Source: a virus
Length of the DNA stretch: 51,693 nt
Virus record (IMG/VR): IMGVR_UViG_3300036939_000003
Coordinates: 1 to 51,693 of that record
Strand: one strand, 5' to 3'
Program-made: the position numbers and the translations under genes
The notes under the pieces: model-generated
Databases searched by the model: none
What the model was told of the DNA's origin: nothing
The model's input: only the letters and a program-made list of their open reading frames with translations
Part shown: positions 32,362 to 34,760 of the stretch, piece after piece
Position numbering within the stretch: the stretch's first letter is position 1
Layout: the number at the start of each line of letters is the position of its first letter

Positions 32362-32441
32362 CCTTCATTAAAGGATACATATTAACTTTAACCTTTCTCT
32401 GCTTATTCATAACAGCAGAGGAAATGAGGGCGGGGGATTAA
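32358..32441 (+). CDS. 27-aa signal-like peptide
   Basis: MTFIKGYILTLTFLCLFITAEE then MRAGD. One hydrophobic helix. Its last codons lie in repeat R2. Confidence 0.4.
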   Translation: MTFIKGYILTLTFLCLFITAEEMRAGD

Positions 32442-32443
32442 AT
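32413..32443. repeat. Cassette-flanking repeat R2, left copy
   Basis: 31 bases identical to 32717-32747 (start CAGCAGAGGAAATGAGGG, end GGATTAAAT). Encodes AEEMRAGD and a stop, and supplies the purine-rich ribosome site of the next gene. Confidence 0.9.
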
Positions 32444-32707
32444 ATGCACTGGACAGAAAGAAGCACAGAAGATTTCTTATCAAGGATTACTTTTGATTTT
32501 ATTGCCCAACTTAATCGGCATTCAGATGTTTTTGACGAGGACGAAAAGTTGACTATCGAGCAAATGATTGAAAAGGCTCGTTCGATCGGCTTTAAGGTTG
32601 CGTTAGTTGCTTACAAAGCAGATGCGCCTGTCAATTCTGAAATATTTTCTCGTTGTTGGGAAAAGCAGAGTAAGCCTGCTGACTTCTTTGAACTTGAAGA
32701 AAACTAG
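32444..32707 (+). CDS. Small acidic protein, 87 aa
   Basis: Helical and acidic (DEDEKLTIEQMIEKARSIGFKV). No motif. Single gene between the two R2 copies. Confidence 0.58.
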   Translation: MHWTERSTEDFLSRITFDFIAQLNRHSDVFDEDEKLTIEQMIEKARSIGFKVALVAYKADAPVNSEIFSRCWEKQSKPADFFELEEN

Positions 32708-32716
32708 AAATGTTAG

Positions 32717-32747
32717 CAGCAGAGGAAATGAGGGCGGGGGATTAAAT
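32717..32747. repeat. Cassette-flanking repeat R2, right copy
   Basis: Identical to 32413-32443. Here it forms most of a 12-codon remnant frame (32710-32745, MLAAEEMRAGD) directly followed by the ATG of a 21-aa peptide. Confidence 0.9.
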
Positions 32748-32811
32748 GGAAATTCTTTTTATCGGTTTTATCGCAGCGATCTTTTATCTTAAATACCATC
32801 GTAAAAAATGA
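32746..32811 (+). CDS. 21-aa single-helix membrane peptide
   Basis: MEILFIGFIAAIFYLKYHRK plus K. Uses the ribosome site inside R2. Last gene before the replication-region promoter. Confidence 0.38.
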   Translation: MEILFIGFIAAIFYLKYHRKK

Positions 32812-32853: not shown

Positions 32854-32882
32854 TTGACTTTTATTGATATTTGAATTAAGAT
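32854..32882 (+). promoter_or_regulatory. Promoter of the replication-region operon
   Basis: TTGACT (32854-32859), 17 bases, TAAGAT (32877-32882). The surrounding ATTTTTATTGAC and later TTTGAT-like bases are shared with the promoter at 38235, suggesting one phage promoter class. Confidence 0.65.
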
Positions 32883-32889
32883 TAAAGAT

Positions 32890-33050
32890 GTCTGACGGTA
32901 ACACTTTTCTAGTTACGCCATTGGTGTAATTTGACGAGAGGTATTTAAATTTCTACACTAACAAAGCCACTTATCTTGGCTCGTTATGGAAGGTGTTTGC
33001 CGTCAGACAGCAGCACTCGTCAGCGAGTTTAAGGTAAGTGGCTTTTTGTT
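32890..33050 (+). ncRNA. Highly structured leader or small RNA
   Basis: The expected start falls at the first base of a long-range stem: GTCTGACGG (32890-32898) pairs with CCGTCAGAC (33000-33008), continued by AACAC/GTGTT (32900-32904 with 32993-32997). Inside is TTACGCC-ATT-GGTGTAA (32913-32929). After it, ACTCG-TCAG-CGAGT (33015-33028). AAAGCCACTTA (32963-32973) pairs with TAAGTGGCTTT (33035-33045), followed by TTGTTTTT, an end-of-RNA signal. The terminator pairing reaches into the long stem's loop, so two alternative folds exist. Confidence 0.68.
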
Positions 33051-33052
33051 TT
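33035..33052 (+). terminator. Terminator arm and T tract before 33063
   Basis: TAAGTGGC then TTTTTGTTTTT. Its partner arm is 62 bases upstream, with the 33015-33028 hairpin in the loop. It stands 11 bases before the first gene, so read-through is required. Confidence 0.55.
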
Positions 33053-33062
33053 TGGAGTAAAT

Positions 33063-33659
33063 ATGCCATCAGGATACACAGCCATAATAGGCGAAAAAGA
33101 TAATGTTAAGTTTCAGGAGTTTGCGCTTCTTTGTGCGCGAGCTTTCGGCGCAACAATTCTAATGCGTGATGATTCACTGGATGTGCCGATTCCAGAAGAA
33201 TTTCAACCCACTGATTACCACTCTAAACAATTAAAGAAGGCTAATTGGGAACTTGATAAGGTTAAACAAATGACTGATGCGCAAATTAAACGCGCCATCC
33301 TAAAAGAGTTTAACGAAGAAGTTGCTCGAATTACTGGATACATCGAAAAAGATAGGATACTAGCCGAAAAATACGGTCGTATGATTTGCGACGTACAGGC
33401 TTGGAAACCTCCAACTGATGAGCATAAGGAAATGAAAAACTTTATGCTCCAACAACTTCACGAATCCTTAAAATTTGATTGCGGACTTTATAGCGAAACA
33501 GACATTCCAAAAACAATGCCTTCAATAGATGAATGGCGTAAGAAGAAAATCGAAAAGATAGCTAGAGATATTACTTACCATACTGAGGAAAATCAGAAGG
33601 AAATTGAACGGACTAACAAGCGTAATCTCTGGATAAAACAATTAAGAGAAAGCCTTTAA
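33063..33659 (+). CDS. Conserved phage protein, 198 aa
   Basis: MPSGYTAIIGEKDNVKFQEF, ALLCARAFGA, MRDDSLDVPIPEEFQPTDYH, then long charged helices. This family is common in siphophages and prophages, usually near replication genes (from memory); function unknown. GGAG site before the ATG. First gene after the structured leader. Confidence 0.75.
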   Translation: MPSGYTAIIGEKDNVKFQEFALLCARAFGATILMRDDSLDVPIPEEFQPTDYHSKQLKKANWELDKVKQMTDAQIKRAILKEFNEEVARITGYIEKDRILAEKYGRMICDVQAWKPPTDEHKEMKNFMLQQLHESLKFDCGLYSETDIPKTMPSIDEWRKKKIEKIARDITYHTEENQKEIERTNKRNLWIKQLRESL

Positions 33660-33681
33660 CCCATTAACTTGAGAGGAGAGA
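33656..33681. repeat. Cassette-flanking repeat R3, left copy
   Basis: 26 bases (TTAACCCATTAACTTGAG then AGGAGAGA) identical to 33976-34001; contains the AGGAG ribosome site of the next gene. Confidence 0.9.
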
Positions 33682-33683
33682 AA

Positions 33684-33872
33684 ATGAAAAAACAAATTTT
33701 AGAAACTGAAATACCGACAAACATTGCCTGTCCTGATTGCGGGGCGCGTGTTTGGACTGATAACGACATTGAGTTTTGCAAGGGCTGTTCTTGGTCGAGA
33801 GCCGTTGCCGTTAAACCTGTTCATTACAATCAGCACACACGAGGCGGAAAGCAGCCGAAAATAAACAAATGA
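33684..33872 (+). CDS. 62-aa zinc-ribbon protein
   Basis: CPDCGARVW near 16-24 and FCKGCSW near 32-38 make a zinc ribbon; basic C-terminus. A TTG at 33669 is in frame, but the AGGAG site points to ATG 33684. Ends by ATGA overlap. Confidence 0.65.
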   Translation: MKKQILETEIPTNIACPDCGARVWTDNDIEFCKGCSWSRAVAVKPVHYNQHTRGGKQPKINK

Positions 33873-33979
33873 AAAAGAGTGAAAGAATATTCTGGATGTT
33901 AATGCGGTGGCTGTTCAAAATCTTACTTACCATCTTTATATTACTGTGCATTTACAGACTTGTTACAGCACCACGTTAA
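33869..33979 (+). CDS. 36-aa membrane peptide
   Basis: MKKSERIFWMLMRWLFKILL then TIFILLCIYRLVTAPR, one hydrophobic helix with a basic N-terminus. Coupled to the zinc-ribbon gene; both sit between the R3 copies. Confidence 0.5.
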   Translation: MKKSERIFWMLMRWLFKILLTIFILLCIYRLVTAPR

Positions 33980-34001
33980 CCCATTAACTTGAGAGGAGAG
34001 A
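33976..34001. repeat. Cassette-flanking repeat R3, right copy
   Basis: Identical to 33656-33681, again providing the AGGAG site of the following gene. Confidence 0.9.
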
Positions 34002-34003
34002 GA

Positions 34004-34216
34004 ATGGCTTACATAAGCGAACACGACACGAGGAAAGCAATCATTACTTGTCTGGAAGTTTTGGAAATTAAAGGCGATAACCCAATGATTGACAAATTAC
34101 AGATTGAAGCTAGGGAATTGCTAAGAAACTCATTAAGTTCACTCGATAAAGATTGGCATATTCGACTACTTTTGGATATCAGAAAGGATGTAAGAGAAAA
34201 GTTGATAAATAAATAA
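34004..34216 (+). CDS. Small helical protein, 70 aa
   Basis: MAYISEHDTRKAIITCLEVL, then helices to the end. The AGGAGAGAGA site supports ATG 34004 over the TTG at 33989. Unrecognised. Confidence 0.6.
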   Translation: MAYISEHDTRKAIITCLEVLEIKGDNPMIDKLQIEARELLRNSLSSLDKDWHIRLLLDIRKDVREKLINK

Positions 34217-34222
34217 CAAGTT

Positions 34223-34310
34223 TCAGGAACGCGGAAATCTAAAAATGGAGGAAATACAAATTATTACGATTAAAACTTCCTCTAGCAAACAAACCAATCC
34301 GCGTTCCTGA
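34223..34310 (+). other. 13-bp inverted-repeat leader with a 21-codon frame
   Basis: TCAGGAACGCGGA (34223-34235) pairs perfectly with TCCGCGTTCCTGA (34298-34310); inside it GAGGAA (34248-34253) pairs with TTCCTC (34277-34282). An ATG at 34245 opens 21 codons (MEEIQIITIKTSSSKQTNPR plus S) whose stop is the last base of the right arm. It may be a leader peptide controlling the next gene. The arm core AACGCGG/CCGCGTT also occurs in hairpin A at 29247-29286. Confidence 0.55.
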
Positions 34311-34319
34311 TTAAATATT

Positions 34320-34760
34320 ATGAGTGAAGAAACTTGGATTTATCTAATTAAAGACAACTTTACAGGTCTACACAAAATTGGTCGTAGCCACGACCCAAAA
34401 GGAAGGTATAAAAAGCTGTGCAAGCAAGATACTTTAATGCCTTACCCTAACGATTTTGTTTTCGTTGGAGCATGGAAATCAACCTCTTTAAGTGAAAAGG
34501 AACTGCACGAAATTTTCGGCTTTTGCAGAAAACGGGGTGAATGGTTTGACCTTTCCGAGGAGGAAGTAGCTTGGATTGAAAGCAAATATTTCTACATCAA
34601 AGAGAATCTTTTCCTCCAAACATCTTTATTCGATAACCTCCTTGACGCTGGATTAATACACACTGCGGTTTATCAACTCAAAGGCGATAAGGAAAAGGAA
34701 ATAGCAAACGCAGACATGGTTGATTATTTAATAGAAGGTTTTGACGAATATTTTATCTAA
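34320..34760 (+). CDS. GIY-YIG (T5orf172/MUG113-type) nuclease-like protein
   Basis: 146 residues. WIYLIKDNFTGLHKIGRSHDP is the GIY-YIG-like opening (Y-L-I-K ... H-K-I-G-R-S), followed by RYKKLC, EKELHEIFGFCRKRGEWFDLS with the conserved Glu-His and GEWF. Proteins of this group are stand-alone nucleases or homing-like enzymes in phages. One-base overlap with the replication initiator gene, just right of the inverted-repeat leader. Confidence 0.78.
   Translation: MSEETWIYLIKDNFTGLHKIGRSHDPKGRYKKLCKQDTLMPYPNDFVFVGAWKSTSLSEKELHEIFGFCRKRGEWFDLSEEEVAWIESKYFYIKENLFLQTSLFDNLLDAGLIHTAVYQLKGDKEKEIANADMVDYLIEGFDEYFI

Follow-up and report, generated by a model that had tools for sequence, protein, structure and literature searches.

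The c4 antisense RNA of phages P1 and P7 (Rfam RF01695) is a short phage RNA that controls termination or immunity by base pairing with complements found within its own transcript unit. It is listed in PMC2864571. The CI RNA of satellite P4, described in PMC4825925, is likewise short and pairs within its own transcript unit, with control of termination or immunity as the outcome. The OOP RNA of phage lambda is a small phage RNA that has its own promoter and lies beside replication genes (in part from PMC12197685). IsrK, from the Gifsy-1 prophage of Salmonella, combines two products of a single promoter: a short RNA that stops at the terminator, and a longer mRNA made by read-through, on which the short RNA acts (PMC4825925).

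Here we describe a locus in a 51,693-base virus record, the whole of which was analysed and is referred to as the window. Judging from sequence, we consider it reasonably probable that the window carries a gene for a small RNA that is a unit of its own and folds into a knot. On this reading the RNA is an outlier of a phage RNA family that occurs widely, and it would serve as an early trans regulator with minor read-through. The plus-strand gene order is DNA methyltransferase (29969), RusA-like resolvase (31186), small genes, the RNA and a phrog_8905 gene (33063), followed further downstream on the same strand by a replication-initiation protein (34760) and then a DnaC-like loader (35640). The features of the RNA are as follows.

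32854-32882, plus strand: sigma-70-like promoter TTGACT-17-TAAGAT, from a consensus match, with a predicted start at 32890
32890-32909, plus strand: S1 5′ arm, which enters the pseudoknot and makes up the RNA's opening 20 nt; 20 pairs, −28.5 kcal/mol
32911-32931, plus strand: local hairpin between the arms, with core TTACGCC/GGTGTAA at 32913-32929, from sequence and fold
32933-32938, plus strand: GACGAG, a possible second pseudoknot strand with CTCGTC at 33017-33022
32963-32984, plus strand: S2 5′ arm (terminator helix), in which AAGCCACTTA at 32964-32973 matches the family motif
32988-33008, plus strand: S1 3′ arm, within the S2 loop, from sequence and duplex energy
33023-33045, plus strand: S2 3′ arm, the terminator stem, from sequence and duplex energy
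33043-33053, plus strand: T-rich tract TTTTTGTTTTT, from sequence, with a predicted RNA end at about 33050-33053
33055-33659, plus strand: GGAG ribosome-binding site, then the first gene to follow the terminator (CDS 33063-33659, 198 aa, phrog_8905, function unknown)

The putative promoter matches the sigma-70 consensus at 9 of 12 positions. Bare consensus matches of this kind are common (7 were seen in 4 kb, versus 9.1 expected from shuffles). Base 32890, the eighth after the end of the promoter at 32882, is the first base of GTCTGACGG and of helix S1, and the promoter position and predicted start given in a preliminary description of this DNA agree with these coordinates. S1 joins 32890-32909 to 32988-33008 with one bulge. 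It includes the pairing of GTCTGACGG (32890-32898) with CCGTCAGAC (33000-33008) and of AACAC with GTGTT, as first described, but it is 20 pairs long rather than 14. S2 joins 32963-32984 to 33023-33045 with 22 pairs and one bulge (−29.8 kcal/mol). Its outer part, AAAGCCACTTA (32963-32973) with TAAGTGGCTTT (33035-33045), is the terminator pairing already recognized inside the loop of the long stem, and the helix extends inwards from there. Because the 5′ arm of S2 lies inside the S1 loop and its 3′ arm lies beyond S1, the two helices interlock without a common base, and modelling suggests that they can coexist as a pseudoknot. A pseudoknot helix of 20 pairs could be threaded because the transcript begins with the 5′ arm of S1, so that this end is free. 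The hairpin between the arms has the 7 pairs reported for it at 32913-32929, one of which is a G-U pair. Pairing between GACGAG and CTCGTC would be weak (−7.3 kcal/mol) and would compete with the local hairpin ACTCGTCAGCGAGT.

The predicted fold of the 163-nt RNA has an energy of −53.7 kcal/mol, compared with −37.1 (sd 3.5) for shuffled sequences (z −4.8; 0 of 200 were as stable), and the pairing of the 5′ segment with the terminator loop (−31.4 kcal/mol) was equalled by 1 of 2000 shuffles. S1 and S2 are two of the 11 inverted repeats reported in the whole 51.7-kb window. When the window and record G001 were scanned for duplexes over their full length, the RNA ranked first in the window; the energies were dominated by long gapped duplexes and told little beyond this ranking. 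A simple terminator scan did not report the S2 site, because the S2 loop is longer than the scan's loop limit of 3-8.

These folds bear on a second model, a cis-acting leader switch or attenuator, which we regard as possible but doubtful. The operon transcript would fold with the terminator closed, or with closure delayed or prevented, and an infection event (an antitermination protein, a trans RNA or upstream translation) would set the level of read-through into 33063 and the replication genes. Folds with a single helix are nearly equal in energy (−53.7 kcal/mol for S1 versus −50.3 for S2), which is consistent with a switch, as is the start of the first gene 17 bases past the terminator stem. 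Two relatives described below, L090 and L277, have the same ending as the window: terminator, GGCTTTTTGTTT-GGAGT-ATATG, gene start. S1 and S2, however, do not compete for bases, and together they would reach about −67 kcal/mol before loop costs (the sum obtained by adding S1 to the S2 fold). The promoter also lies exactly at the first base of the RNA, which marks an independent unit. The bistable leader suggested earlier is thus less likely as stated, given that both helices can form, although a kinetic switch is conceivable.

The gene directly downstream does not appear to define the RNA. Homologues of phrog_8905 were found in 18 named phage records, and none of six phrog_8905 loci in other phages (one of them, L012, without annotation) has a comparable leader before the gene; the five annotated loci have a gene or tRNA close upstream. 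The idea of a leader tied to the phrog_8905 gene family was therefore rejected. No relatives were found by way of the downstream gene or of the replication protein, a DNA search of seven related records gave only short chance matches, and L016, the closest relative by portal-region protein (57% identity), has no family match. The pattern GTCTGACGG..CCGTCAGAC occurs in eight stretches of viral contigs, a number not above chance, and all eight are unrelated. Two other features of the surrounding DNA can be recorded here. At 34223-34310, directly before the gene at 34320, a perfect 13-bp inverted repeat, TCAGGAACGCGGA/TCCGCGTTCCTGA, surrounds a second, 8-bp hairpin; the stretch folds at −32.2 kcal/mol (z −4.85) and has no U-tract. 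In addition, repeated gene-start sequences of two kinds, CAGAGGAAATGAGGGCGGGGGATTAAAT and TTAACCCATTAACTTGAGAGGAGAGA, each occur twice before small genes, at about 32413-32446 and 32715-32749 and at about 33657-33684 and 33976-34005.

Evidence for a family came from a pattern scan of IMG/VR for AAGCCACTTA-N40..70-TAAGTGGCTTT (21 fixed bases, 31 spacings), which returned 41 viral stretches where fewer than one was estimated by chance. Nearly all of these show a promoter, a 5′ hairpin, the common stem and a U-tract. A relaxed pattern returned at least 119 stretches and a longer-loop pattern 79, partly overlapping. The family RNAs are phage sequences of about 90-130 nt with a lower stem AGCC[GA][CU]UUA/UAA[AG][CU]GGCU, and they follow a common plan in which a promoter stands in register with the RNA and the 7-nt loop of a 5′ hairpin finds its pairing partner within the terminator hairpin's loop. 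Conservation of S2 is partly forced by the search patterns, which require the S2 stem, and because AAGCC/GGCUU is common at the base of terminators, the S2 match carries information in part of its length only. Among the matches listed, an exact 7-bp complement between the upstream 60 nt and the terminator loop was present at 196 of 210 S2-motif loci (near-identical contigs included, all of them kept for this test), versus 30 of 210 after shuffling of this upstream segment. Four matches in a genome collection, three from Lachnospiraceae/Oribacterium and one from Chitinophagaceae, were treated as unrelated, because the similar sequence in L037 is a plain long hairpin.

The covariation of the family was assessed in a seed alignment of 39 sequences, for which the counted structure comprised P1 (GUUG/CAAC), the pseudoknot, S2 and the apical hairpin P3. 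In counts that ignore the relatedness of rows, 93.6% of cells were paired versus 78.1% in shuffles, 210 cells had changed on both sides versus 67.6, and the whole-structure covariation score was 0.472 versus 0.173, each unmatched in 500 shuffles; the number of further pair types was reached in 26 of 500. Shifting the partner by 1-3 columns reduced pairing to 35-50%. Pseudoknot cells were 99.3% paired, five of the seven pseudoknot pairs had changed on both sides, and three of the seven showed all four Watson-Crick types. Within S2, U-G was the commonest pair at columns 36-98. A test independent of the seed used 57 matches to R1, the model of the family, lying outside the seed (58 loci searched), 56 of them distinct. 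In 54 of the 56, the exact complement of the loop 7-mer was present in the member's own terminator loop, with 28 different 7-mers represented, whereas the 7-mers of other members matched in 2 of 2936 trials. Of 146 relatives, 108 have a promoter scoring at least 8 of 12 that is placed to start the RNA exactly where P1 begins, compared with 1-4 of 146 at six displaced positions; the window promoter scores 9 in the family register. An in-register promoter, compensating changes in the loop pairing and a terminator in the relatives all support the discrete small RNA originally envisaged.

The length of the 5′ pairing varies within the family. Divergent members with other 5′ strands retain S2 and the knot, with pairings of 9 bp in L209, 9 bp in L183 and 11 bp in L235/L134, and L090 carries a pair of 5′ hairpins, for whose loops the terminator loop offers two possible partner sites. 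Copies are usually single: 49 of 50 records searched whole matched, and a clear second, diverged copy elsewhere in the contig was found in two records, G023 and G049. The diverged second copies have an S2 of the form AG[UC]CUUUUAG, an unchanged knot and a shared AAGUGGUA, and perhaps constitute a sub-family of their own; they are located at L059:7466-7565:- and in L274 (G023:14300-15000), where the contig also has a canonical copy.

Several properties link the window RNA to this family. The lower stem motif, followed by a U-tract, is present at 32964-32973 and 33035-33045; the 5′ strand pairs within the terminator loop, with 20 pairs versus 7-11 in the relatives; and a sigma-70-like promoter is placed to start transcription exactly where the 5′ stem begins. 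The layout from terminator to gene start is that of L090/L277. With rusA on one side and replication-initiation/DnaC-like genes on the other, the RNA also has surroundings that many family members share. The 5′ hairpin GUUG-N-[CA]GU-N5-CAAC is absent from the window, as it is from L134/L235 and L209, and so is the apical CCCC/GGGG hairpin (P3). Model R1 gives the window 23.4 bits from S2 alone, which is at noise level (antisense-strand matches of true members reach 37.8 bits), and gives borderline scores of 36.7 bits to L134/L235 and 39.6 to L209. Taken together, the exact S2, the promoter register, the topology and the neighbourhood make the RNA a likely relative of the family, and the missing GUUG hairpin and noise-level score place it as an outlier. 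The preliminary description had named compensating changes as a check on the long stem; these were found in the equivalent helix of the relatives, but none were found for S1 of the window, which has no close homologue among the sequences searched.

The same observations can be set against the view that the locus has nothing to do with the family and is simply a terminator with a long loop, to which an upstream segment happens to be complementary. The noise-level R1 score, the lack of a common 5′ sequence and an S1 without a close homologue are all compatible with that view, yet a pairing as strong as S1 arose in only 1 of 2000 shuffles, and chance would also have to supply the exact S2 motif, the same promoter register, the topology and the type of neighbourhood. 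We consider a chance complement improbable.

The neighbours of the family were counted at 193 loci (near-identical contigs included, with names taken from one representative each). The count took only loci with the 7-bp complement and left out L037, L081, L177, L180, L184, L190, L192 and L233, which were judged to be chance hits. Genes found mostly upstream on the opposite strand encode a Sak-like annealing protein (77 loci) or SSB (24 loci), and a repressor/Cro-like protein is encoded directly upstream at 28 loci, at a median distance of 127 nt. Mostly downstream lie genes for a replication-initiation-like protein (54 loci, at a median distance of 228 nt) and for RusA (30 loci). The downstream gene is that of a major head protein at 14 loci, and the upstream protein lacks a PHROG at 17. 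The variety of neighbours indicates that the element is not tied to one gene and that it favours, like the window RNA, operon starts near replication genes. Long variants such as L179 and L194 have a longer apical part and precede a major head protein gene rather than replication genes. In many relatives a second long conserved noncoding stretch, beginning CCGTACTCC[AG]CACG, lies between the RNA and the replication gene, about 10-230 nt past the family RNA (L127 8560-8855, L034, L101, L030, L109 and others); in L127 it has no Rfam match up to E 1, and it is possibly another structured RNA. Six tRNA genes lie near the family RNA in L044 (2346-2864).

Proximity to genes for replication initiation, SSB, Sak-like proteins and RusA might suggest an element acting at the level of DNA or replication, with the interlocked repeats forming DNA hairpins or the transcript priming replication. 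The nearly palindromic element of the relatives, whose antisense strand scores up to 37.8 bits, would fit such a role. The promoter register, the U-tract on one strand and the G-U pairs of S2 instead point to RNA, and the 14 loci that precede a major head protein gene do not fit a replication element. This model strikes us as very improbable.

Further evidence relevant to an attenuator came from sequences beyond the terminator. In tests confined to loci with the canonical 5′ motif and an exact complement, the 5′ strand of the relatives was complementary to the post-terminator stretch. At 41 loci that have a particular downstream element, the mean score was 9.54 versus 7.76 (sd 0.27) in shuffles (0 of 1000), and the z score was about 3.4 when each 7-mer was represented by a single row. 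Since the tail complement occurs only in read-through RNA, a second state is possible in the relatives. A wider tail test on 131 rows was nevertheless weak (27 of 131 for own tails versus 12.2% for cross-matches), tail complementarity was not seen in the window, and the next gene in relatives is often 200-500 nt away and of differing type (head protein, replication, rusA).

It has also been considered that temperate phages use the family for immunity or incompatibility based on RNA, in which the 7-mer sets immunity groups; we regard this proposal as speculative and unlikely. A fixed scaffold would display a hypervariable 7-nt loop (28 kinds in 56 sequences), with complements in the same unit, located in the terminator loop and, in some members, just past the terminator. 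The RNA of a resident phage would pair with the nascent RNA of a related incoming phage having the same 7-mer and would set termination before the replication genes. In the window RNA, the specificity arm would then be 20 nt long.

Under the preferred model, a discrete small RNA with minor read-through, host RNA polymerase would start at 32890, as the position of the promoter suggests. The order of the arms suggests that the first 20 nt would pair with 32988-33008 as the latter emerges during transcription, and that S2 would then close around the 3′ arm of S1 and end the transcript at about 33052. The product would be a pseudoknot with its 5′ end in a 20-pair helix and its 3′ end in the terminator, a presumably stable RNA with both ends locked. 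Such an RNA would most likely act in trans in early phage regulation, and a minor read-through product may feed the downstream operon, as in Gifsy-1 IsrK.

The knotted-terminator RNA family looks uncatalogued, with no Rfam match and no literature description found. A cmscan of the whole window against 4227 families of Rfam 15 gave no match at the curated threshold, loosened scans of the window region and one relative gave only sub-gathering matches, for example to microRNA models, and scans of relatives (8 and 10 loci, whole) found only the tRNAs of L044; the failure to match a known RNA family noted at the outset thus extends to the relatives scanned. A search of a limited paper collection for phage RNAs with pseudoknots and terminators found no description, and the word ‘pseudoknot’ does not occur in the available portion of a 2025 review of phage small RNAs (PMC12197685). 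In named phage genomes the family is almost absent: blastn with L029, L038, L127 and L105 against 50,697 phage records found a single record, that of the podovirus MW202484.1 (Manatee Spring), with two of the four queries. In this record the RNA comes after a gene for a helix-turn-helix protein, which matches the replication protein of the family; the RNA overlaps a predicted CDS and precedes rusA. An RNA with a very clear covariation signal in at least about 200 environmental phage contigs (near-identical ones included) is therefore missing from Rfam. Its frequent site, at the head of early operons beside repressor-like and replication genes, is where phage fate is decided, so that direct tests can be made of a part played in timing, immunity or replication. 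The link from 5′ end to terminator loop also offers a clean model for the effects of a knot on intrinsic termination and RNA stability.

Comparison with the described phage RNAs places the locus near several of them. The c4 and P4 CI RNAs differ from the window RNA, which cmscan did not match to a known family, whose pairing partner lies inside its own terminator loop, and whose promoter is in register with its first base. The window RNA resembles OOP in being small, in having its own promoter and in adjoining replication genes; OOP is antisense to cII, whereas the window RNA runs with the operon. The likeness to IsrK extends to an own promoter, a short RNA with its own terminator and, as proposed here, partial read-through into a downstream phage gene, and the difference lies in the pseudoknot between 5′ end and terminator loop, which is predicted for the window and has no mention for IsrK in the passages of PMC4825925 consulted. 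By analogy, IsrK appears to be the closest working parallel to the window RNA.
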